From Artemia franciscana (Eukaryota; Arthropoda; Branchiopoda; Anostraca; Artemiidae): 64,000 nucleotides of DNA. Every line of letters starts with the position of its first letter. Positions within the stretch are counted from its first letter, which is position 1. Positions 45,170-61,210 of the stretch are shown here, piece by piece. Both the position numbers and the translations under genes were made by a program. The DNA is taken from the NCBI RefSeq assembly GCF_032884065.1, contig NW_027063627.1, forward strand, positions 606,001-670,000, read 5' to 3'. The notes under the pieces are model-generated. The model had not been told where the DNA came from and ran no database searches. It saw nothing but the letters and a program-made list of their open reading frames with translations.

Positions 45170-46017
45170 TCAGAAATCTAGTAAACTATTCAAAAACTCG
45201 TTTATATACGGTGCAACTCTCTCTGGGTGCTCAAGATGAACCCAGTGTCCCCCATCTACTTCTAAATAATTAAAACTTTTGCAATATTTAGGGTAAAGGT
45301 CTCTAAATTCACGGTAAACTTCGTCTGGTTCATAACTTGGCGCATTTTTTGACTTAATTAGCAATAACTCACATCTGATATTCTTCAGTAGTTTCTGTTG
45401 TTCTGCTATAGAAAACCTTTGGATACTTGCGGTATTTTGCCGCAAGTCTCTAGTAAAATAATATCCTTTTCCATTGGGCGCCTTAGCTGCGCCTCTTTTC
45501 AATAAAACTCTAGCACCCTCAGATGATAAATTACCAAGGGTTCCTTCAACGTATCTTTTAACCAAAGTTTCCATAGGTACAGCTTGAGGTTTAGAATTGA
45601 GCATTTTATGCTCGGCTAATAAATTTTCTTCAATTGCTTCTCCGATATCTTGCGTGTGCCACGCAAGCGGCACTGTTACTGGCTTTACCATATCTAAACT
45701 CACTAGCTTTTCAACTTTCGCTGGAAATACAGAAGCGTAAACAAGACCAAAACCACCTCCCATACTGTGTCCTATCATCGAGAATTTGTCTAAATTAAAA
45801 TATTGAGCTATTCGGTGGTATTGAACTACTAAATCCCAAACGTTGTACAACATTCCTGGTGGATAAGGTGTAGAAAATCCATGTCCTGCAACGTCAAGAG
45901 CGATGTATCGGAATTTCTTGTTGAGAAGTGGAATAAGTCGATCGAAAGTTCCAGCATTGTCCTGCCATCCATGGTAGCACAGAATGGGATTTCCCAACGG
46001 ATTGCCCCATTCTTTAG
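45170..46017 (-). CDS. SERHL: Catalytic exon of the SERHL-like hydrolase
   Basis: Begins after a minus-strand acceptor (TTTTGTTATAG) at 46017 with CT completing an Ala codon, then KEWGNP and the whole alpha/beta-hydrolase core, ending at TGA (45172-45170). The core is a single uninterrupted exon of 282 codons. Blocks in order: oxyanion HGWQDNAG, LDVAGHGFS, nucleophile elbow IGHSMGGG, a helical cap region (residues about 155-245 of the full protein), LLLIKSKNAPS, and the histidine loop GGHWVHLEHPE. All catalytic positions that I can check are present, so the exon looks functional. Confidence 0.9.
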
Positions 46018-46999: not shown

Positions 47000-47093
<94 letters not shown>

Positions 47094-50000
47094 TATGAGT
47101 GATAGGTCGTATGAAAACAAAAGGAATGTAAAGAAAGTGGAGAAAGCATTAAAATATGAACTAAGGAGATGTGAAGTGGAGGCCATGGATAAAATTGCTA
47201 AGGATCTGGAAGATGCGGCTAGACAGCATAATAGTAAAATATTATACTGGCATGTTAATAAATTGAAAGGGAGTAGTCAATCCTGACTAGTCCCAGTTAA
47301 AGATAGAAATAGGGCCACAATTAGTGATAAAGAAAAAGTTAAAGAAAAATGGGTGGAACATTTTGAGAATGTGCTAAACCGAGATACAGTTGCAGGAAAA
47401 GATATAGATGAAAATGAAAAAGTTTGTGATACCTTGGATGTGAAGGAAGATTTGTTTAGTGAGGAAGAATTAGCGACGGTACTAATAGGATTAAAAAATA
47501 ATAAGGCTCCAGGTGCTGATAGTGTGATAAATCAGTTTCTTAAATATTGTGGCTCTGAGGTTAGGAACAAGCTACTGAAGATTATGACCATGATTTTTGA
47601 AAAAGGGGAAATACCTAATGATTTTAGGAAAACCTTAATTAAACCACTGTATAAGAAAGGCGACAGGAGTGAGTGTCGTAATTATCGAGGCATTAGTCTG
47701 GTCTCTGTAGGTAGCAAATTACTGAGTAATATGATACTTTTTAGACTGAGAGATGCTGTAGACAAAGCTTTAAGGGAAGAACAGTGCGGTTTTAGAAAAG
47801 GTAGAAGGTGTGTCGACCAAGTTTTCACTCTTAGGTTAATAATTGAGAAGTCCCTTCGTTGTCAAACACCTTTGGTCCTTAGTTTTATCGATTAAGCTTT
47901 CGATTCTGTTGACAGAAGAGCGTTAGCAAAGGTCTTATCCTTATATGGTATACGAGAAAAATACATTAAAGTGATTTGTGCTATGTACGAGAAAAATACT
48001 GCTGCGGTTAAGGTAGGAAATGAGGTTAGCAACTGGTTTTGTATTAAATCAGGAGTTAAGCAGGGTTGTGTTTTATCCCCCTTTACATGGATTATTTTGA
48101 TGGACTTCGTCTTAAGGAGCACAGGAAAGGCAATTGGAGACCACGGAATCAAATAGGGAGGAGAAACGCTCCTGGACTTAGATTATCCTGATGATTTAAG
48201 CATATTAGATGAAAGTTTGAGCAAAATGGATGAAATTTTAGAGGTTTTGCGAGTTCAGGGTGCTAGAATACGCTTGAAAATTAATGTGAAGAAGACTAAG
48301 TCACTAAGGCTAGGAATAAGTGAAGATGAAAAGGTGACGTTGGGTAACGAAAAGATTGATTAGGTTGGCAGCTTCACTTACCTTGGTAGTATTATTAGTA
48401 AGGACGGTGAGAGCAGTGAAAATGTTAAAAGTAGAATAGCTACTAAATTTCTGACACCCCATATGACACCTACTAAAATTTCTGACACCCCATATTACGA
48501 GACTAGAGTGGATCAGTTTTTATTCGAAATATAGACTCTATTAAATGTCTGTAGAGCAGCAATAAATTCAACAGCTGGCTAAGCATGTTTGGCATTGAAT
48601 ACTAAAACTTCGGCATTTGAACCCCACAAACTATCTTGATTCTGTTGTGGCTGAATCCCAGTGACTGTCACAATACTTGCATCTACTGATACAGATTGAG
48701 AAGGCAGCATGGCCATGTCCATATCTCAGGATATTGGATATCGTCAGGGGAGACATATATTCTTTTCAATCGTAGTTCATGGTATGTGGCAATCCTGACG
48801 GGCGTGACCCGACTAAGGCCTACAAACCTATAGGATACTTTAGCCAAAAATGGTATTCATAGTTCTTCAGCAATATTTTAGAACCCACCCTGACTAAAAG
48901 TAATTTTAGCTTGAGTTTGAGAGCAGGCTGTCCCAATTTATAGATAAAGGTATGCACACTATGTATTAATATGTGTGATTCAATCGATTGAATACGTTAT
49001 TCTTCTTCATCTCAGCCATTTTCTAAAAAAATTGTATACTACTACTACTACTAACAATTCACTGCAGCACCAAGTCGCCTGAGGTCAACATTTCTAGGGA
49101 CGTTCCTCCTCCATCTCAATAAAAGCCTCCTACTTTACACCCTCTCAAGAAGATCTGATTTTTATAAATCTTTCTTTGCGACATCCTTCATCCGGGTTAC
49201 AGTGTCAGCTAGCAATCCGGGTCGCAGCGGTAGCTAGCAATCTAGTAAGAGACGATCACGTCCCATGCTAAAAAATACAATAGCCCATAACTCCTAAAAA
49301 GAAAACCAGATCGAAACACAAATTATGGGATTAGAATCACCTTCTTCGAAATCCCTAAGTATGAAACTTACAGGTCCCTGGCTTGAATAAGAGGAAAATC
49401 CATAGGCTTGAAAAACAAGACAAGTTGCATGAACTACGATATTCAACATCGACGGTACCTCTTTTTTATTCTTCCCTCACGATGGCTGGGCATTGGAACA
49501 TGATAGAGAGCTGTTTAATGGATCATTTGAAAAAAAACTGCCTTAAAATACTTTTTTACTAAAAAAAAAACTGCATTTGCATGTACAAGCTTGATGAACG
49601 ACATCATAATCGTAGGCTGTAACCATATATAACGTTCATAATCGTAGGCTGTAACCATATATAACGTAGTAAGTAAATGCAATATTTATAGACGCTTATC
49701 TTTCGACAAGCTAATATAAGAAATAAATTAAAGATTGGAATAGTTCATTGTAAATGGGGACTATGTAAATTTCATCGGATATAGCTGAAACCTAGTAAGA
49801 ACAAACCACGGCACATAGTAACTAAAAGTTCAGATAGTAAAAACATGTCTGGATTATAGTGTCATACTGAAAATCGTCTATTACTATTCCAACTAAGATC
49901 ACGCCATAGGCTTTTTCCTGCTTATAATCCAGGTTGCAGCGGTAGCTAGCAACCTAGTAATTATAGTAAAGAGCGAACTCTACCACCCGTAACTGGAATA

Positions 50001-53000
50001 TCAAATTAAAATACAATCGAGGAACTGTTTAAGCCCTTATCAGTAAAATTCTGGTTGTAACGGTAGCTGCAACCTAGCAAGACACGGAACACGTCCCATA
50101 ATAGTTACATAAAAGATCGATATAGTTCTTTATAAATTGGGACTATGTAAGTTTCGTCGGATATAGCTGAAACCTAGTAAAGATCAAGTCACGTCATATA
50201 GTAGCTTAAGTAAAAAACGATGCTTTGATAGAAACGATAAGGTTTTGATAGAAAGGGTTGTTGTATTGGCTATACAATTTAAAATTCTAGTTCTTTTTTA
50301 AGCGTCAAATGTGACGGAAGGCATTTTACCCCCCTCCCTTACAACCCCTATTTTCACCAAACAAATCTGTTTGAAATTATGATATAGCAATTAAATTAAA
50401 GGTAGTTCAAAGAACATATAATAATGTCTCTAGGTGTAAAACAGCCCCCCTGCGCCCAAGGTTGTAAGTTAGGGTTGTAAGTTATACCATGTGGGCATAT
50501 AAGGTTTTAATGGAATTGGCAGTCGCATAAACTTCAGATGGGGCATATTTGATTTTAAATTGGAAGTTAGAGTGACCTTCTTAAGAGTCAAAGTGATTTG
50601 AGAGCGACCAGCCCCCCCCTCTCCATGCTCATTATTTCCCGTAACACCTCCAAAGAAAATTTAGAGATAACAATTATAATCATAACTGTTTAAGGTTTCA
50701 GAAATTATTACTGTGAGGAGGATACCCCCCCTTCCCTACATCCCTCAGGGAGAGGTTCGTAAGTTATGCCCTGGGGAAATATAAGGTTCTTATAAAAAAG
50801 GGGGGCCGCATACACTTTGGACGGGAATCATTGGCTTGGTAATCAGAAGTTCTAGTGCCTTTTTTAAGAATCAAAGTAATCAGAGCAAAGCTACCCCCCC
50901 CTCACAAACACAAACACGTTGTTTTTTCCCGAGGTGTATTCAATAGATATTTTTAGACGGTCCTTTTATTCAAAAAAAAAGTCCAAATATCTTATAACAA
51001 GGCTTTTGATACAAACCACCAGAGCCTGAGGACGAGGGTTGTATGTTATGCACCTAGTGCATTTAAGGCTCTTATCGAAGGAGCCGTAGTATAAACTTTA
51101 CAGGTGGCTCAATTTTTTGAAATTGGAAGTTCTAGTTCTCTTTTAAGAGCCAATAGTGATAGAGGTGAAGTAGCCCCCCTGACCCAACTACCCCTCTTTT
51201 CACCAAAGCATCTGATTGAAATTGTGTGATGGCAATTTTGTTTAAATAGTCATAACAATACCTGCAGAGTTGGAAAAACCCCCCAAGAGCCCTGGGGCAT
51301 GGACCTGAAGTTATGCTCTGGAGGCATATAAGGTTTTAATGGAATGGGTGGTTTTTCCCTATTTTATTTTTCCCTGAAAAAGACTATCAAACAGTTCGTG
51401 GTGACGAACTGCAGTAAGGAGCGACCCGGCTCAATATTGATCAAAACTCTAAAAAAATGGAATTTTGATACCAATAGCTACATCAAAAGAATCGCATTTT
51501 AATGCTGATTTCAAATATATAAGTTTTATCAAGTTTAGTCTTACCCATCAAAAGTTTCGAGCCTGAGAAAATTTGCCTTATTTTAGAAAATAGGGGGAAA
51601 TCACGAGAATCACACCATCAGATTCAGTGTATCAGAGAACCCTGTTGTAAAAGTTTCAAGCTCCTATCTACAAAAATGTAGAATTTTTTATTTTTTGCCA
51701 GAAGGCAGATCACGGATGCGTGTTTATTTGTTTGTTTGTTTGTTTTTTTTTTCCCAGGGGTGATCGTGTCGACCCAGTGGTCCTAGAATGTTACGAGAGG
51801 GTTCATTCTAACAGAAATGAAAAGTTCAAGTGCCCTTTTTAAGCGACCAAAAAAATTGGAGGGCACCTAGGCCATCTCCCACGCTAATTATTTTCCCAAA
51901 GTCAACGGATCAATATTCTGAGACAGCCATTTTATTCAGCGTTCAGTAAAAGTAAAAGTTTTCAGTAAAGTGCAAATTATATTCTGGCTTTTACAAAGTA
52001 TAGGGGGTTTTAAACCCTACTCATGTTAATTTCTGCTCGTTTTGAGTTCGGCTCGGTTATTTATTGTAATTCCTGTCCGTTTTGGTTTTGATTTATTTAT
52101 TGATGCTGATTTGTGGTATTTGTATGCTTGGTAGATTATTTGATTCTTTTCTGTTCATTTTTGGTTTAATGGAGTTTTTTGGTTTTTTGAAAAACTTATT
52201 TTGTGGAATTTTTTTTTAATTAATTTACATAAAGGATCGACATAGTTCATTACAAATGGGGAGTACGCAAGTTTAATTGGAGATAGTTGAAACCTAGTAA
52301 GGAAAAAACCACTTCACATAGTGACTAAAAACTAACCACGGTTACAGGGGTAGCTAGAAACCAAGCAAGGAACGATCACATCACGTCCCATAGTAAAAAA
52401 TAAAATAGCCCAAAGCTCCTAAAAAATGGTGTTAGATCCCAACATAGTGTACCTTACAAGAATCGCCAAAGAAAAGTGGGTGACGCCAAGATATTCTGCA
52501 TTAACTATCTTTTTTTGTTTTTTTCCTCTGCAGCTATTGGGGCACTGAAATATCATAGAGATCTGTTTAATGGCTCATTATAAAAAAATCGATGGATTTA
52601 AAACCATCCATAATTAACAAAAATAATTTTTAAAATAGAGTCAATTACATAATCAAAAAAATTAGCTGATTTCGTTGTACTCAAACGTATTTTTTTATAC
52701 TCAGTCAGCAGCTAAATCACTTGGAATTGATCAACTAGCTGGTTTTGTTTTATTCAAAAGTGCTTTTATTAAATTTTTAGACCCAGTCGGTAACTAAGAC
52801 AAGCGGAATTTATCAACTAGCTGAATTTGTTGTACTCAAAAGTGCTTTCATTAAATTTTGTTAGTCAGTCAGCAACTAAAACACTCAGAACTTACCAACA
52901 AGCTGTGTTTGTTGTGCTCAAAAGTGCTTTCAATAAAATTTTAATATCCAGTCAGCAACTAAATTAATGGGAAGTAACCAACTAGTTGAGTTTGTTGCAC

Positions 53001-55987
53001 TCAAAGGTGCTTTCTTTAAGTTTTTTGGTACTCAGACAGAAACCAAAACAGTAAGAATTCATCAAATAGCTGAGTTTGTTGTACTCATAAGTGCTTTTAT
53101 TAAATTTTTTGATATCCAGTCGGTAACTATAGCACTCGGAATTGACCAACTACCTGAGTTTGTTGTAATCAAGAGGGCTTTTGTTAAATTTTTTTACCGA
53201 GTCGGTAACTAAAACACATGGAATTTATCAACTAGCTGAGATTGTTGTACTCAAAGTGCTTTTATTAAATTTTTGATGCTCAGCCTGTTTGTTGTACTGA
53301 AGAGTGCTTACATTAATTTGTTTACTCAATGAGCAACTAAAACACTCGGAATATAACAACTAGCTGAGTTTGTTGTACCAACTCAGCTAGTTTGTTGTCT
53401 AAGACTTTTACCAATTTAACAACCAATTGACATATGTCCCCCTTCCAAAAATATTCACTTGACAGAACCATTTGCTAATAACCTCTCAAATTTAAGTATC
53501 AATCATTTCAAATTGTTTATTTCAACCTCATTGCCAGCATATCTGGTCCAACTCCGAAATGAACATCTTACGATGCCACTTTAAGACATGAAAAAAAGCT
53601 GAAAAACTACTGAGTTACAAAAATGGGGCGAAAAGTGGGGGTGGGGGCGCTGGAGGCCCTTAGAGGTGGTACATGGATGACAATAAGTTCCCTTAAGAAA
53701 ATGCCATAATAATTGATTCATTGGTGACAAAGGTTCGCTGGTTTACTTTATCAAAGCGCGCGTCATAAGAAAAAGGGGTAGCACACATGACGCTTTTGAT
53801 TCATTAAACTTCTGTTCTTATTGTAAAATGCATTTAAAATCCCGCCAAAATATATTTAAAATCCAGAAAACAGAATATTAAGTATATCTGTACCTATGCT
53901 AATATAAGTGGTGAAGTAAAGTTCAATACTATATCATAAATTCTAGTAGTCCATTTAAAATCAAATAAAACAGATCAATCCAAATTTTCCAAAAGGCTTA
54001 TGGTGGATATGCAATCAGTCAAACAAGTGCTTAAGACTATCCGTCAACATTTCCCCTGGAAAAGACCTAACATGTCTTCCTCAGTCTTTTGATACACCTA
54101 CTATTCAGCGCCATTCTTGTCAGTTCGGTGGCTTCCAATTTTCTAGTCTTAGTCTATAAACCTATCTTACAATGCTTTCAAACTTTTTCGTACAGGAAAA
54201 AAAAACACCCAGTGCCTCTTTTATTTACATCTTCACTGTTTTTTTTCCAGACCTTAACTGCATCTGCAATCTTTGTTTAAAAATAAAGTGACCAGGTGAG
54301 TGAAACTATCTTCTTGATCTATTTTGTTGGTAATTAACAATCACTTCTTTGTCCTATATTACTTGTAATTTGAGCAGCTTAGCTTGACGAATATTATCTT
54401 TCAAACCTAATGAGCCCTCAAACTTAAAAAAAGGTCATTTGATCAACTAGCATTTTATCAAGGACACTCAAATCATGTGCCTAATCTAAGTCTAGGAGAG
54501 TCTTACCCTCCTATTTGGTACCATATTTTCCCAAAGCCTTTATTTTGTTTTTGAGGGCAAAGTGTACAAAATAATCCACAAGAAACATTGACAGGACTCC
54601 GCCCAGCTTAACATCTACTTCCTTACTGAATGAACTATCAACCTCACTATCTACCTTGACTATAGCAATATTATTATAATACATAGCTTAGCACTAATAA
54701 ATTGTACGTACTTATCTGGTATACCGTACAAAGGTATGCCATTTGATGGATAGCCATCACAAAGAGTGTGTGAGCTTTGGAGTCTAAAATAAAATGAGGA
54801 ATGTTGGAAACATGGTCAAACCCAGGTTCACACACTCGCAATTTTATGCAACAATAAAAATTAAAGTTCTTTTTGATGATTATCATAGTTCTGATCAAAT
54901 TTTATAGTTAATTTTGATGATAGTTCAAAAATATGGCTAAGTTGAGTAACTTTTTATTCAATGATAAATTGTAGGTTCAAGCTCAAAAGAAAAATTATAT
55001 AAAAGTATTTACAATAAAGATGAACATTGGAGTATTAATAAAGACTGTAAGATAACATACACTAATTTAGTTAAAGAATCAGAAGCAGCATAAAAGCATA
55101 TTCATATCCAAGAAAGCTGGGAGGAGGGAATAGGTAAAGTAGAAGTGTGTTGGAATGTCAGCTATGTGATTTGGATTAATAAGCAACACGAAAACAATCT
55201 TTTTCCTAATTTGCTTATTAAAAGGGTAACTTCTTTATAATAGCCTAACTTATGCTCTTCAGTCTGAAGCTTTTGTTAGGTTCCATAGGATTAAAGTAGA
55301 TCCTAATCTTAAGAATTCAATCTTTTTGGCTACAGTTCAAAAGTGCTACAACAATAGTTGGATGTGAATTTAAAATACTTTCTTGCGAAATGCCATGATT
55401 TATGTCAAAGTCAAACGAATAATAATCGCCAAAAGAAATTGCAGAAGAGTGAAAGCGGGGCTAAACCACATTCATAAGTGTAGCAATCAGAATATTTGGA
55501 AAACCCAAAAACTTATGTAAAACAGACATACAACTATATTGATCAATTTGGTATTTGCACCTGGCTATCCTCAGTTACGAAAATGTTTTCAGTACGTGTT
55601 GCTTAGTCCAATCAGGGCTATTGAAATACTCATCATTATAATAGAAGTTCAAAATATTAATGTGGATAATATCAATTTCAATCCTATCACCATTTAAGCA
55701 AATATTGAAAATTTACATGATAAGGGCAAAGTATCATTTACTTTCCGTCTGTCATTTGGCATCTGCGCTAAAAGACATATCTGTCGGCAAATTCCTTTCT
55801 TAGCAAGTGCAGTTATTTGAATATGGACAAATTCACCCAATAAAGAAAAAGTTAAAAAGGGTTTTAACTTACCAGCTATATATCCCCAAGGCATAGGTAT
55901 CCGAATTTCTTTTGGAGCATCTGAAAATAGACGCACAAACCCATTGACTTTTCTAGAATATTTTATCTGTGGTCGTATAACATACAT
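45170..55987 (-). CDS. SERHL: Serine hydrolase-like protein (alpha/beta hydrolase, SERHL/kraken type)
   Basis: Two exons on the minus strand (55987-55873 and 46017-45170) join in phase across a 9.86 kb intron (G|CT, Ala) to about 320 residues, against roughly 310-330 in the family. The junction recreates the family stretch PWGYIAAKEWG, followed by the oxyanion loop HGWQDNAGTFDR. The nucleophile is Ser123 in GHSMGGG, the probable catalytic His is in DGGHWVHLEHPER (about residue 296), and the acid is probably one of the Asp residues near 270. Substrates of this family are not firmly known. Members are reported in peroxisomes or vesicles, or linked to digestion in flies. The proposed N-terminus is basic and could be a mitochondrial presequence. 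It lies head-to-head with a mitochondrial carrier gene. Confidence 0.85.
46018..47002 (-). other. Intron of the hydrolase gene, near the catalytic exon
   Basis: Unique-looking AT-rich DNA. 46600-46760 has GGAAAA/CCATGGAAA phrases reminiscent of FB segment B but too diverged to place. Frames at 46300-46922 are not convincing. Confidence 0.4.
47003..47096. repeat. (AT)n microsatellite
   Basis: About 94 bp of AT, ending with ACATATATATGAG. It directly adjoins the 5' boundary of an RTE-like LINE copy. Confidence 0.95.
47097..48450 (+). pseudogene. RTE-like LINE, reverse transcriptase region, with stop codons
   Basis: A single reading frame runs from 47095 to about 48450, broken only by stop codons at 47284, 47893, 48154 and 48361. 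It shows the LINE linker (EKVKEKWVEHFENVLNR), then reverse transcriptase blocks: NNKAPGADS, LIKPLYKKGDRSECRNYRGI, EEQCGFRKGRRCVDQVF, FID (followed by a stop) AFDSVDRRAL, SGVKQGCVLSP. The catalytic box reads YPDD instead of the usual YADD. It ends abruptly at KSRIA before the thumb and 3' tail. No active enzyme is possible. The same family occurs at 34.7, 49.0, 54.0-54.7 and 57.3-58.8 kb. Confidence 0.85.
48451..49035. other. Junction of the LINE and unclassified sequence
   Basis: CTACTAAATTTCTGACACCC and its near copy CTACTAAAATTTCTGACACC form an imperfect 30 bp tandem duplication at the LINE break point (48438-48495). A 47-codon minus-strand frame at 48722-48579 has protein-like composition (Gln, Ser, Val) but no domain I know. 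Confidence 0.4.
49036..49192 (-). mobile_element. 3' end of the RTE-like LINE family
   Basis: Reverse complement of the 3' terminus: ACTACTACTACT tail, CACTGCAGCACCAAG, CGCCTGAGG, ACACCCTCTCAAGAAG, matching 57300-57470. It is truncated at the 5' side near 49192, where the CGGTAGCTAGCAA repeat begins. Confidence 0.8.
49193..50230 (+). repeat. Dispersed repeat with a GGTTGC-N11-GCAACC hairpin
   Basis: The hairpin phrase (arms GGTTGC and GCAACC around AGCGGTAGCTA) is exact at 49932-49954 and varied at 49195, 49219 and 50053. Each is followed by CTAGTAA and, at a distance, by CGTCCCAT or ACATAGTA. TATAGCTGAAACCTAGTAA with TGGGGACTATGTAA upstream occurs at 49755-49805 and 50130-50185. A 32 bp exact tandem duplication lies at 49604-49667. 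No protein coding was found. Confidence 0.7.
50270..51345 (+). repeat. Tandem array of about 280 bp units (four units)
   Basis: The AGTTCTAGTGCC-type phrase recurs near 50283, 50560, 50838 and 51119 (277, 278, 281 bp). Every unit then has a C-rich run with CATGC or CAACC, a TTTGTTCAAA-type phrase, GGTTGTAAGTTATG and GGCATATAAGGTT. The same unit occurs at 33.4, 35.7, 39.7-40.4 (inverted) and 58.9-60.2 kb. Confidence 0.8.
51388..51955 (+). repeat. FB element terminus and segment B
   Basis: Begins with the terminal hairpin CAAACAGTTCGTGGTGACG, then AAGGAGCGACCCGGC and segment B through CACGGATGCGTG to TCAACGGATCAATATTCTG, and stops near 51955. H1 and all inner modules are absent. Confidence 0.8.
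51956..52640. repeat. Two dispersed repeats back to back
   Basis: 51956-52215 carries ACTCATGTTAATTTCTGCTCG and TGTTCATTTTTGGTTTAATG, the inverse of 36330-36600. 52220-52440 is another copy of the GGTTAC...TAGCTAG family (hairpin variant at 52340) with TAGTTGAAACCTAGTAAG. No gene. Confidence 0.6.
52640..53400 (+). repeat. Tandem array of 82-84 bp units
   Basis: GGAATTGATCAACTAGCTG followed by GTTGTACTCAAAAGTGC and TTTATTAAATTTTT recurs with its GGAATT (or variant) start at 52723, 52805, 52887, 52970, 53054, 53138 and 53220, with a last, disturbed unit at 53348. Where units are 84 bp (28 codons) the frame stays open, giving an 81-codon frame (52967-53212) of three related peptides with EFVVLISAFIKFF-type cores. 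Unit lengths of 82 and 83 break the frame elsewhere, so coding is unlikely. Confidence 0.85.
53400..53970. other. Unique sequence within the hydrolase intron
   Basis: AT-rich with a G-run near 53638-53650. No repeat, motif or frame worth naming. Confidence 0.4.
53970..54700 (-). pseudogene. Old RTE-like LINE copy, heavily decayed
   Basis: On the minus strand, 54690-54400 reads as the same reverse transcriptase region as 47971-48230: MYYNNIAIVKV, then SMFLVDYFVHFALK, KALGKYGTK, a stop, EGKTLLDLD, a stop in place of the catalytic Tyr, AHDLSVLD. Text near 54040-54060 corresponds to the LGLFQGKC segment of the thumb. Changes, stops and frameshifts are far more numerous than in the copy at 47 kb, so this insertion is older. 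Confidence 0.7.
54700..55872. other. Hydrolase intron next to exon 1
   Basis: AT-rich. Might include more 5' LINE sequence, but I could not align it. The minus-strand donor GTAAG lies at 55872-55868. The small frames are not convincing. Confidence 0.4.
55873..55987 (-). CDS. SERHL: First visible exon of the SERHL-like hydrolase
   Basis: ATG at 55987, 38 codons and one extra base, then the donor G|GTAAG. The end, KEIRIPMPWGYIA, is the family's conserved N-terminal strand. The first 22 residues are basic, lack acids and end RLFS, which fits a mitochondrial presequence. A stop codon precedes the ATG in frame (55996-55994). An alternative is that TCTATTTTCAG (ending at 55921) is a true acceptor. 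The exon would then begin at 55920 and the N-terminus would come from an unseen upstream exon. The conserved part is secure; the start is not. Confidence 0.75.
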
Positions 55988-56002
55988 TCCAAATTACAAT
56001 AA
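55988..56002. promoter_or_regulatory. 15 bp between divergent start codons (candidate shared 5' region)
   Basis: The hydrolase ATG reads leftward from 55987 and the carrier ATG rightward from 56003. Only TTCCAAATTACAATA separates them. There is no room for a promoter between them, so each 5' UTR would have to be antisense to the other's first exon unless an unseen upstream exon exists on one side. No TATA box is assigned. Confidence 0.45.
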
Positions 56003-56167
56003 ATGGAATTTTTGACTGGGGGTGTTTCTGCTTGTGGGGCCTGCTTATTCACAAATCCTCTAGAAGTAGTGAAGATCCGAATGCAATTACAAGGCGAACT
56101 TGCAAGCCAAGGTGTATATCAGATTCACTACAAAAACCCTTTTCATGCTATTTTCCAAATTGCTAAG
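56003..56167 (+). CDS. SLC25A35: Exon 1 of the SLC25A35-type carrier
   Basis: 55 codons from the ATG to AAG before the donor GTAACT. It covers transmembrane helix 1 and the start of the first matrix loop. The start matches the usual family start (Met-hydrophobic-Phe-Leu), so it is well placed even though it lies only 15 bp from the opposite gene's ATG. Confidence 0.9.
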
Positions 56168-59100
56168 GTAACTTTTCTCATTTTCATCGCAGGGCAAAAT
56201 GTTTGAATATGCCGGACATGATATTCTTTCTATCTTAGGAAGTGATTAAGTTAGGATAAAATTTCAGGAATCAATTAAATGCTCTAAAATATACACTAGG
56301 AAGGTATTGCCAACCCACCATATCCACCCTTTCCTTCTTTATAGGGCAGTAAAGATAGCATGCATAGTAGATCTGTACCCATCTATATTGTGGTAAAAAC
56401 AATGTTTTACAATAGATTGAATTTTCAATGTGTTTTTATTTGCTCTTTTCAAAAATTTAATTTCATAGAATTAAGGTATTATTTTAAGCATTATCAAGGG
56501 TTTTTCTCCTAATATAAGAGTATGTTCAGAAATTTGTGAAATTTTATAAGTTGAGATTGAGTGAAGCTATGGTGCTTAAAATGCTCTCTATTGTCTCATT
56601 TGAGCAAAAGATAATTTATCTACCACAAAGATTATAGAAGGTTTCCAAAGATGAGGACCCTTTGGAGAGAAAGCAGATGAAAAAGATTTCAAAATGGCTT
56701 CCCATGGAATATCTTAGACTGTGGATTTATTAATGAAACTTACATTGATCTAACTCCAGTACTTTTCAAGACAGCAAGAAGCTTCAAATCTAGCATTCTC
56801 CCCTTAGCAAATTTCTAGTTAAGAGTCATCTTATAAACTTGGAAAGCAGCTTTCAGTGATGAATCCAGGGTCAAAATTTATTCCTTGGAAGATGTTATTA
56901 TGCTGATATCTCTACCCTTTTTATGCTAGGCTATGTCTTAAGAGATTAGCCTTAGTAGGCTAGATTTCAAGTTTAGGTAAAATTCTGCATGAGTTACTTC
57001 TTGCTATCTTGGGAAGGGGTTTGGTTAGGAAAATAAAACTTTCAAATGAATCCAGGGCCAAAAACATGTAAATATAGTTCATACAAAACATAGTTCATGA
57101 ATATAGTTCATTTTATTGACCTACAAATAAAGTGAACATACCACTAGATAGCCTTTTTTACACTCTTTCTGAATATTATAATTGCTTTCCTTGCAAATTC
57201 AATTTTAAGCACTCTTAGCTGTTCAGCACCTGATGGTACTGAACAACTTTAAGTAAGTTTGGACCCTTAAAAAATAATCCATTCAATATATTTTGAATAT
57301 ACTACTACTACTACTACTAATAACTCACTGCAGCACCAAGCCGCCTGAGGCCAACACAGCTATGCACGCTCCTACTCCAACCTAATCTATTTAAAGCCTC
57401 CCTCTTTACACCCTCCCAGGAAGTTCCCATTTCCTTTAAATCTTTATTTATGACGTCCTCCCAACCCAGACAAGGGCAACCTGCTTTCTGTGTAGCCCCA
57501 GATGGTTGGCCAAAAAGGACAATCTTTGGTAATCTGTCATCCTTCATCCATAGAATGTGGCCTAGCTGTCTCAACCTTTCTTTCATTGTAGCCCCAGAAA
57601 GCAGGATTGAACCACACTTTTTGTACAACCTAGTGTTTGAAAATGGTCAGTCAGCTGGGTACCCAGAACAATCCATAGGCAATTTCCCTGGAAAACATCT
57701 AGTAAATTTTCATCTGCTTTTTGGAGTGCCCATGCTTCAGAGCCATATTTGACCACTGTCATCACTATAGCTTCCAATATTCTAATCTTGGTTTGTGGAC
57801 TTATCTTTCTATTCATCCAAACTTTTTTTAACTGTGAAAAAACACCCTGAGCCTTAGCTATTCTACTTTTAACATCTTCACTGCTCCCACCATCTTTACT
57901 AATAATACTACCAAGGTAACTAAAGCTCCCAACCTGATCAATCTTTTTGTTACCTAATCCAAATTGTTATTTTAGCTTTAGAGATAACATAATCATCATT
58001 GGTAGCAACTTTCATACCAACACATTACCTAGCATATATATTTTTGACACTTGAACAACTGATCAATGATTTTGCTGCTGCACACTATAAAATAAATGAG
58101 ATTGTGGACCAGAGTTGAAAGTATAAAATGCTGAAACCCTATAAGCAAGTGTGTATTCTCCTTGCAAGCCCTTGTGTTTGGTTGTTGCCTCTGAATTGTT
58201 TGTCCTTTTTTTTTACTGTTTTTAATATTTGGTAAATGACAACTTATACTTACTTACAACACGACTGCCTGTCCATGGATTATTCTTTATGGTTGATTGT
58301 GTATGGCTATGCTGTTTGACCTATGTAATTGTATGGATGAGTAGGGCTAAGGCCTCATTCAAGTACAGATCTATATTAATTACTAATGTAGGAAAACAGT
58401 CTTCTTTTTCTCTTTCTGTCTTTTTTTTATGTGTTTGTGCTGTTGCATTGGTGATTTCTTTTTTCATTATAATAAACATTGGGAGCTGCAAGAATAAAAT
58501 ACTCTACACTCCTCCTTGTATCAATCAGAATATCAGTAATAAAAATTACTTTATTTTGCTAAAACTTTCATCTATATGCTTAAATCATCAGCATAAATTA
58601 GGTCTTGGAGAGTTTTACTTCCCAAATTGATTCTCTGTTCTCCCATTGACTTTGCTGTTTTCCTTAGGACTAAGTCCATCAAAATTATCCATGTAAATAA
58701 GAATAGAATGCAACCCTGTTTAACTTGGGACCATAGGCAGCATAATAGCATTGCCTAAGTAGGCTAAAGAGCAATTTGGCACAATGTATCATTTTTTGTT
58801 TTAATTTTTGTTTTAGACCAGGGCACTGTGTGTCAAAGGAGCTGTCTTTTAAGCTTTGAAAAGGACTCATTCAATTGGAAATTGAAGAAGCTAGTGCCCT
58901 TTTTAATAGTCGGAATTGATCAGGGGGTAACTAACCCCCCTTCCATGCCCACCACTTTCCCAAACATATCCAATCAAAATTTTGAGATAGCCATTTTGTT
59001 CAATATTGTTGAAAGGTCTGGAAACTATGTATTTCAGGATAACAACCCTCAGAGCAAGGGTTGTAAGTTATGCCCATGGGGACAAATAAGGTATATATAT

Positions 59101-59896: not shown

Positions 59897-59975
<79 letters not shown>

Positions 59976-61210
59976 AGGCGATTGTATAAACTTTGAAGGG
60001 GGTTTATTAGATTGGTAATCAGGAGTTCTAGTGCCCTTTGAAAGATTCAGAGTAATTGGAGAGTGGATATCGCCCCTCACACATCATATTTTTCAAAATA
60101 CATCTGAGAGAAATTTTGAGATGTAATTTGTTGTCTTAGAAATTTTGAAAAAGGCTCATTTGATTGGAAATTGAAAGGACTAGTGCTCTTTTTATTAGTC
60201 AAAAGTGGTTACAGGTACTGATTAGAAAGATACTAACTAGGTGTTGAGACAATCCAATTTCATGCTGTGGAGTTTCAGTGACAAAAACTGGTTTTTGTCA
60301 CTGCAGATTTTAGAATAAAGTGACATACATGAACTGCCAAAAAGTAAAAGGCATAAGGTGCTTTTGAGTAACCACTAGTTTTAGAAGAGGGGATTTTAGA
60401 GGAAATCCCTTGCAAAATAAAGAGAAATATAGTTGTCGTCTGTAGATTTGCCATTGTTCTTAGAAACATTTATTGAAAATATAACTTCAGATCCATCATA
60501 AAGAGAATATTCTTGTTAATCGTCTCTTAACCCATGAAAAATAGGTAATTTTATTCCCGATTTGGACTTGCGTTGTCTCTGTGAATGGCAATAATCCCAG
60601 GTAGCTGAAGACCATTCTTTGGCGACAAAAATAATGAGGACCAGACACAGATGCCTTTTCTCAAAATAGTCTAGTCAATTCTCTGTAAAAACGAAAAAAA
60701 TCTTTTATCACTGGTAACCAGCCTAGTGACTGTGCTGCTCGCCATTTTTCAATTTATAGGCAAGTGGCTTGTTTGTGGATCTGCTTATTTCTGTTTTGTG
60801 TTTATAGAAATGATGATCAGGCAGGTCATATTATACTGATCCAGCAGTTTAGCTCGCCAGTCAGAGTGCTGTGAAAGCAAATTCTTTCAAAATGTGGATG
60901 CTCTTTTAGACTGCTAAATTAACTACGCTCAGACACATTAGCCAACTGTTAAATCAAATGATGCCTATTCTCTGTAACTTTTTTCTACTGTTTGTTTAAG
61001 GTTGAGGGCATTTTGGCGCTACAAAAAGGCCTAGTCCCTGCTCTTTGGTATCAGTTATGCATGAATGGCTCGAGACTTGGAACATTCCATTTCTTTGAAG
61101 ACAAAGGCTTTGTAAGAAGACCAGATGGAACAGCAAGTCCAGCAAAAACTATTTTGGCTGGATTAGTGGCAGGATGCGTTGGTGCCTTCTTTGGTAGTCC
61201 ATTGTATTTG
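56003..61210 (+). CDS. SLC25A35: Mitochondrial carrier, SLC25A35-type (first two exons; gene continues past the window)
   Basis: Exons 56003-56167 and 61001-61210 join in phase 0 to the first 125 residues of a carrier that is normally about 300 residues. It opens [20 protein letters not shown], as SLC25A35/34 proteins do, with the mitochondrial carrier signature PLEVVKIRM in helix 1, then LQGEL and [13 protein letters not shown]. Exon 2 gives [15 protein letters not shown] (matrix helix and helix 2, with Gln where the signature has an aromatic) and then helix 3 up to GSPLYL, the second signature. The family sits in the inner mitochondrial membrane. The transported substrate is not established. 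Exons for helices 4-6 are not found by 64000. Confidence 0.85.
56168..57299 (+). other. Carrier intron 1, first part
   Basis: Donor GTAACT at 56168. AT-rich with no clear repeat. ATATAGTTCAT text is duplicated near 57070-57110. Confidence 0.45.
57300..58800 (-). pseudogene. RTE-like LINE copy with intact 3' end, interrupted
   Basis: On the minus strand, 58800-58530 holds the reverse transcriptase part ([15 protein letters not shown] in shifting frames, then a YADD-like box). 57970-57317 holds the thumb and C-terminus: [84 protein letters not shown]. It ends in a TAG triplet tail at 57300-57321. In the 47 kb copy only about 145 bp separate the two parts. Here about 560 bp do, so foreign sequence (about 57980-58500) has been inserted. 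Two overlapping frames (57628-57317 and 57816-57583) show a frameshift near 57600. Confidence 0.8.
58855..60200 (+). repeat. Higher-order tandem array in the carrier intron (280 bp family)
   Basis: Two alternating subunits. Type a (GGAAATTGAAAGGACTAGTGC, TTTTTAATAGTC) starts near 58862, 59283, 59681 and 60153. Type b (GGTAATCAGAAGTTCTAGTG) starts near 59133, 59531 and 60000. The a+b period is about 400-420 bp, longer in the third unit because of a TA expansion. The units share the phrases of the arrays at 50 and 33 kb. Small frames are incidental. Confidence 0.8.
59901..59970. repeat. (TA)35 microsatellite inside the array
   Basis: 70 bp of TA at the position where the first unit has only (TA)6 (59092-59103) and the second has GGTACATGTATAA. 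Confidence 0.95.
60201..61000 (+). other. Carrier intron 1, last part
   Basis: Unique AT-rich sequence. CAAAAACTGG/CCAGTTTTTG-like text near 60280-60300 can form a small hairpin. The intron ends with the acceptor TTTGTTTAAG at 61000. Confidence 0.45.
61001..61210 (+). CDS. SLC25A35: Exon 2 of the SLC25A35-type carrier
   Basis: 70 codons in phase 0 between the acceptor TTTAAG and the donor GTATGT. Begins [10 protein letters not shown] and ends GSPLYL, exactly where the second carrier signature (Pro-x-x-x-Val-Lys) would continue in the next exon. It covers helix 2, the MNGSRLGTF stretch and helix 3 ([20 protein letters not shown]). It is free of stops and conserved at glycines, so the gene looks alive. 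Confidence 0.9.

Follow-up and report, generated by a model that had tools for sequence, protein, structure and literature searches.

How can two genes be transcribed away from each other when their start codons are almost adjacent, and where do their promoters and mRNA leaders then lie? The locus studied here, part of a 64,000-nucleotide stretch of Artemia franciscana DNA that is referred to as the window and that contains no Ns, raises this question for a hydrolase gene on the minus strand and a mitochondrial carrier gene on the plus strand.

Structure of the gene pair

The original prediction placed two first exons facing apart, with ATG codons at 55987 (minus) and 56003 (plus). We found both ATGs and both donors at these positions (Table 1), and the spacing of 15 bp between the start codons is read directly from the sequence. 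Each first exon joins, in phase, further exons of the gene on its own strand, and both proteins are uninterrupted: splicing of the two hydrolase exons yields a protein of 320 amino acids (PWGYIAAKEWGN), and the five carrier exons yield one of 307 amino acids. A longer coding start inside either first exon is ruled out because in-frame stop codons are located directly upstream, a TAA at 55994-55996 (minus) for the hydrolase and a TAA at 56000-56002, immediately before the ATG, for the carrier.

Table 1 Features of the hydrolase/carrier locus in window coordinates. Slashes mark splice boundaries.
Feature	Position	Strand	Details
Gap separating the start codons	55988..56002	.	15 bp
Hydrolase first coding exon	55873..55987	-	ATG 55987; donor CTG/GTAAGT after 55873
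Hydrolase second and last coding exon	45170..46017	-	acceptor TTATAG/CT; stop codon 45170-45172 included
Putative mitochondrial presequence MYVIRPQIKYSRKVNGFVRLFS	55922..55987	-	net charge +5, no acidic residue
AG of candidate alternative acceptor (CTATTTTCAG/AT)	55921..55922	-	if used, the exon would lose its N-terminal part
First upstream ATG for an unspliced hydrolase leader	56087..56146	-	19-codon uORF, antisense in carrier exon
Carrier first coding exon	56003..56167	+	55 codons, phase 0; donor AAG/GTAACT after 56167
Carrier second coding exon	61001..61210	+	
Carrier exons 3-5	67683-67901, 70234-70348, 76110-76324	+	window coordinates extended beyond 64000
First upstream ATG for an unspliced carrier leader	55823..55843	+	6-codon uORF

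The hydrolase and the carrier are adjacent genes on opposite strands with transcription pointing apart, and they would probably form a divergent pair according to the definition of such pairs as genes on opposite strands whose transcription start sites (TSSs) are less than 1,000 bp (under 1 kb) apart. When the 401-bp junction was compared with the 1.27-Gb assembly in a DNA search that skips very common words, the only match was the junction itself. If 26,923 genes (PMC11492255) were placed at random, the whole genome would be expected to contain approximately 2.3 divergent pairs with so small a gap, a rate of 1.7e-4 per gene; the spacing is therefore rare for a named gene, yet within chance somewhere in the genome. 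No tRNAs and no RNA families above the gathering threshold were detected in the window.

Both protein folds named in the original prediction were borne out. The hydrolase matches Abhydrolase_1 in a domain search (E 3.9e-27) and aligns with the solved protein 7al5 (E 8.2e-36), and the nucleophile motif GHSMGG (GxSxG elbow) is read in its second exon. We take the hydrolase to be SERHL/Kraken-like. With the SERHL/SERHL2/Kraken family of serine hydrolase-like proteins it has in common the alpha/beta hydrolase fold, the GHSMGG nucleophile elbow and a PWG motif at the N-terminus, which we assume to be a mark of this family. In contrast, it has a presequence-like N-terminal extension and ends in LLDF, which under the PTS1 rule as we understand it is not a PTS1 peroxisomal signal. 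The carrier contains three Mito_carr stretches (E 1.6e-55), as do the SLC25A34 and SLC25A35 carriers, and is presumably SLC25A34/35-like (SLC25A35 in the original prediction); its N-terminus begins, as far as we can judge, at the same point as that of human SLC25A35.

The N-terminus of the hydrolase

The alignment of the hydrolase to 7al5 begins only at query residue 26 (chain residue 6), and about the first 20 residues are therefore extra. In addition to the charge given in Table 1, the putative presequence has a hydrophobic moment of 0.567 and contains the sequence R-L-F/S, which we take to be a cleavage motif of the R-3 type. A net charge of at least +5, the lack of acidic residues and a moment of at least 0.5 were jointly present in just 6 of 1143 distinct control ORFs, and the same features plus the R-3 motif in 2 of 1143. 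These counts support the earlier suggestion of a basic, mitochondrial-type N-terminus, and the hydrolase and the carrier probably both act in mitochondria.

The same N-terminus bears on an unlikely alternative, in which the hydrolase coding exon is entered by splicing at the acceptor that ends at 55921, the ATG lies in another exon and the 15-bp distance is an artefact of an open frame. Such a start would strip 22 N-terminal residues, a stretch including MYVIRPQIKYSR, and precisely these residues resemble a mitochondrial presequence to an extent reached by only the 6 control ORFs mentioned above. By the pyrimidine measure used, CTATTTTCAG is a plausible acceptor with 7 of 10 pyrimidines, compared to 6-9 in six acceptors taken as true; sites scoring at least 7/10 occur 4.9 times per kb per strand and those scoring at least 8/10 occur 2.4 times. 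Also in favour of this alternative, 7.4% of the random frame points sampled (n = 6846) had an in-frame ATG at least 22 codons upstream with no stop in between, and 1158 ATGs out of 4118 were open for 22 codons. A further point against this alternative comes from a paralogue of the hydrolase, the N-terminal frame of which is contiguous within its own exon 1. Overall, an exon start near 55920, at the candidate acceptor, looks weaker than a start at ATG 55987.

The paralogue is located at C1:29931142-29931975, has 39-40% identity and is the sole one among the matches listed (at least three candidates scored). The intron position of the hydrolase is kept in this gene. The open frame that precedes the conserved KEVSIP there spans 75 codons, or 72 counted from the first ATG; the chance of 75 open codons is 0.029. 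Its first 22 residues have a net charge of just +3 and a moment of 0.294 and lack the R-3 motif, and its start is itself uncertain because later in-frame ATGs occur there.

Proposed location of promoters and leaders

With both ATGs in place, leaders that run antisense through the opposite first exon would be a matter of geometry, as long as these leaders have an appreciable length and are not acquired by splicing from another site. The explanation that we favour, and that we regard as fairly probable, is a very tight divergent pair of nuclear genes in which each promoter is located in or near the first exon of the other gene and the leaders overlap. The hydrolase promoter would lie in or near the first coding exon of the carrier (roughly 56003-56145) and the carrier promoter in or near that of the hydrolase (roughly 55824-55987), so that the mRNA leaders would overlap by about the length of these exons. 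An open promoter region would be common to both genes, as in ordinary divergent pairs and with no dedicated antisense mechanism, and the two genes might be co-expressed. A more elaborate proposal, in which the core promoter of each gene is embedded in the first coding exon of the other and the leaders pair as dsRNA and thereby balance expression, appears improbable to us. Under that proposal, the same ~100-160 bp would be coding on one strand and promoter plus leader on the other, with the presequence on one side and the first carrier repeat on the other side, and two mitochondrial proteins would be coupled.

We scanned the leader strands (plus 55800-56010 and minus 55980-56200) with 13 promoter patterns. 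The only matches were TATAWA at 55877 (plus), CCAAT at 55837 (plus) and DPE-like elements at 55811 and 55971 (plus) and 56078 (minus), whereas Inr, DRE, Ohler-1, GC-box and NRF1 had none in these ranges. Background rates are 5.5 (TATAWA), 1.1 (CCAAT) and 5.0 (DPE-like) per kb per strand; every match is of a kind common in the window. The 13-pattern scan gave no bidirectional-promoter signature, and missing motifs are compatible with a promoter.

Unspliced leaders would be free of ATGs up to 158 nt for the hydrolase and up to 179 nt for the carrier (see Table 1 for the first upstream ATGs). Compared to synonymous-codon shuffles, this lack of ATGs had a P of 0.15 (first 135 bases of the carrier exon) or 0.19 (whole exon) for the hydrolase leader and of 0.27 (hydrolase-exon part) for the carrier leader. 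Being no more than expected by chance given the encoded proteins, the ATG-free leaders were discarded as evidence of overlap.

Acceptor-like sites are found at 55921 and 56060 (minus) and at 55803, 55875 and 55956 (plus), where a spliced leader might join or an exon be shortened. Those at 55956 (plus, 7/10 pyrimidines) and 56060 (minus, 8/10) lie shortly upstream of the ATGs and score within 6-9, as the six presumed true acceptors do. They would suit a situation in which both ATGs are right and one of the mRNAs, or each of them, has a non-coding leader exon spliced in from further off, for example from the first intron of the other gene; the primary transcripts would then overlap deeply, but the mature leaders little. 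As such sites are common, however (4.9 per kb per strand at 7/10 or more, 2.4 at 8/10 or more), we consider this arrangement not very likely. It is highly unlikely, in our view, that both mRNAs begin a few bases from their ATGs, with almost no leader and little or no overlap. Some genes for mitochondrial proteins do have short leaders and the geometry allows them, but a 15-bp gap would leave little room for two core promoters, and the context of the carrier ATG, CAATAAATGGAA, mismatches what we take to be the short-leader TISU consensus.

Comparison with known divergent pairs

The hydrolase/carrier pair is probably a new example of a tight divergent arrangement of an already known kind, with 5' ends that probably overlap. 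In D. melanogaster, 5' overlap is seen in 114 divergent pairs out of 2,199, and 94.8% have none (PMC2670823); for human, one or more of 73 libraries show it in 582 pairs (PMC8076222). The pair described here resembles these cases in its opposite strands, transcription apart, near-adjacent starts and leaders expected to be mutually antisense. It differs from them in its 1.27-Gb host genome and in being known from its sequence rather than from TSSs. Judging by titles, none of the papers returned for Artemia together with bidirectional promoters deals with Artemia promoters, a search joining spliced leader, trans-splicing, crustacean and Artemia returned no paper, and the only one returned for SLC25A35 with SERHL was a mouse implantation study. 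For divergent pairs and adjacent starts, the papers listed (15 of 44 in the larger search) were general ones.

If the starts are true and the leaders unspliced, the locus would provide a clean case from a large genome of two promoters forced into coding exons. It would allow one to ask how promoter and coding constraints coexist on the same bases, and whether a 5' overlap affects either mRNA. Otherwise, its use lies in annotation, with exon boundaries exactly defined for two intact genes.

We also considered a duplicated hydrolase-carrier pair on C1 and rejected it. A carrier match at C1:30068231-30068542 (34% identity), which we presume to be closest to the oxoglutarate carrier, is ~136 kb away from the hydrolase paralogue and on the same strand. 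The 60 kb around the paralogue gave one 11-residue match to the carrier query (E 0.90), and no SLC25A34/35-like carrier was found in this region. At least 15 candidates were scored when the assembly was searched with the carrier; the fourth match, at C16:34761138-34761293, has 37% identity and one internal stop.

Gene structures and start codons

The original prediction that two first exons lie head to head, with their ATG codons 15 bp apart, was confirmed at the sequence level, as both exons join intact genes in phase (see table). On the minus strand, two exons encode a protein of 320 amino acids that matches the Abhydrolase_1 domain (E 3.9e-27) and that we take to be a SERHL/Kraken hydrolase. 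Among the best 60 of 113 matches to solved sequences, the top one was 7al5, a "Probable hydrolase" (E 8.2e-36), with the alignment starting at residue 26 of the hydrolase and residue 6 of 7al5. On the plus strand, five exons yield a carrier of 307 amino acids without internal stop; it contains three Mito_carr stretches (E 1.6e-55) and presumably belongs to the A34/A35 subfamily. A TAA stands in frame immediately upstream of the carrier ATG and another at 55994-55996 upstream of the hydrolase ATG, so that neither first exon holds an upstream coding extension.

Gene features and promoter pattern matches at the hydrolase/carrier locus
Feature	Position	Strand	Remark
Hydrolase exon 1	55987 (ATG) to 55873	-	donor CTG|GTAAGT
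Hydrolase exon 2	45170-46017	-	in-phase join with exon 1; ends in stop codon
Carrier exon 1	56003-56167	+	
Carrier exon 2	61001-61210	+	
Carrier exon 3	67683-67901	+	beyond window, numbering continued
Carrier exon 4	70234-70348	+	beyond window, numbering continued
Carrier exon 5	76110-76324	+	beyond window, numbering continued
TATAWA	55877	+	promoter pattern scan
CCAAT	55837	+	promoter pattern scan
DPE-like	55811 and 55971	+	promoter pattern scan
DPE-like	56078	-	promoter pattern scan

We searched the assembly (1,270,528,402 bases in 6468 contigs), in which the window covers bases 606001-670000 of the 2.06-Mb contig C1041, with both genes. Carrier exons 1 and 2 gave four listed matches, namely both own exons and two weaker ones on the contigs C1 (34%) and C16 (37%). 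Three were listed for the hydrolase, two being its exons and the third a relative at C1:29931142-29931975 (39-40% identical).

N-terminus of the hydrolase

Alternatively, the hydrolase exon could begin after a candidate acceptor ending at 55921 on the minus strand, which would remove the N-terminal 22 residues, MYVIRPQIKYSRKVNGFVRLFS, from exon 1. With 7 of 10 pyrimidines, this site falls within the 6 to 9 of six acceptors taken as true and could thus serve by strength; sites as good occur at 4.9 per kb per strand. The residues themselves would count against such a start, carrying a net charge of +5 with zero acidic residues; their maximal helical moment is 0.567. As a control, 1143 distinct open stretches of 22 codons, each starting with ATG, were taken from seven retrieved loci and from three regions of the window that exclude the hydrolase and carrier exons. 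This set is mostly non-coding, impure through carrier exon 5 in one locus and part of the C1 carrier in another, and may contain unannotated exons. Of the 1143, 49 had a net charge of +5 or more without acid, and ten attained the moment of MYVIRPQIKYSRKVNGFVRLFS. Net +5, no acid and a moment of at least 0.5 occurred jointly in 6 of the 1143, and together with the R-3 motif in 2; all these control figures are somewhat flattering, because we had already seen the sequence when picking the features, setting the thresholds and placing the cut at residue 22. An in-frame ATG at least 22 codons upstream, before any stop, was found for 7.4% of 6846 random frame points.

The relative on C1 is a second hydrolase gene from the same family, spanning C1:29931142 to about 29947964 (minus strand), with its intron at the same position when the sequence is read by eye. 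Upstream of the motif KEVSIPVPWG, its exon 1 keeps an open frame over 75 codons (chance 0.029); the earliest ATG lies 72 codons before this motif, and the 45 residues from that ATG on are acid-free with a net charge of +9. This paralogue would favour an N-terminus contiguous with exon 1 more than a presequence, for which it is weaker because the helical moment of its first 22 residues is low (0.294), their net charge is +3, they lack the R-3 motif, and further in-frame ATGs follow the first. Another SLC25 carrier lies at C1:30068231-30068542 (minus strand), about 136 kb from the paralogue; since it probably belongs to a different subfamily, this closeness looks like coincidence.

Carriers of the SLC25 type are mitochondrial. 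Human SERHL2 is handled as a MitoCarta3.0 gene in a passage of PMC10334674, and a table in PMC7477296 gives Drosophila Kraken as not localising to peroxisomes; passages of PMC11732562 name no localisation. Together, these points make the shared mitochondrial role guessed for the two products reasonable.

Leaders, promoter and comparable gene pairs

If unspliced, the hydrolase leader, i.e. the mRNA upstream of the ATG, would be free of ATG for up to 158 nt, spanning most of carrier exon 1; for the carrier, the ATG-free part would reach up to 179 nt and span all of hydrolase exon 1. These stretches are no evidence for a leader function, since among 5000 synonymous-codon shuffles with the codon usage of the two genes themselves, the first 135 bases of carrier exon 1 lacked an antisense ATG in 15%, the whole exon had at most one in 19%, and hydrolase exon 1 had none in 27%. 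Thirteen promoter patterns were scanned on the plus strand within 55800-56010 and on the minus strand within 55980-56200; TATAWA, CCAAT and DPE-like matches were found, all of kinds frequent across the window, and the remaining patterns had no match in these ranges. As only such common patterns matched, a bidirectional promoter has no visible motif signature, yet the sequence would be compatible with one. Judged by geometry, an antisense overlap of both leaders with the opposite first coding exons is the likeliest reading, in which we place moderate confidence.

Random placement of the 26,923 genes predicted in Artemia franciscana (a count from a passage of PMC11492255) would yield about 2.3 divergent pairs genome-wide whose ATGs lie as close together as here, or 1.7e-4 per gene. 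According to a passage of PMC2670823, divergent pairs hold 31.6% of D. melanogaster genes, and 114 of 2,199 such pairs overlap at their 5' ends. For human cells, a section of PMC8076222 reports 582 pairs that overlap in one or more of the 73 libraries, the majority overlapping in some libraries only; a lowering of expression by overlap was not confirmed by the authors in that section. Divergent pairs can thus be numerous in genomes, and the hydrolase/carrier arrangement is a fresh instance of an already known one.

Both first introns contain repeats. In the carrier intron, two minus-strand ORFs appear by eye to be non-LTR retroelement pieces, one (57583-57966) with a sub-threshold DUF6451 match (E 0.00012) and one (58572-58754) without a match in the domain search; a long AT/TA dinucleotide microsatellite lies at 59901-59970. 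The long hydrolase intron holds a reverse transcriptase fragment (47896-48153, plus strand; RVT_1, E 1.2e-08), about seven tandem copies of an 82-bp unit (52692-53274, 75% matches) and another long AT/TA microsatellite (47003-47096).
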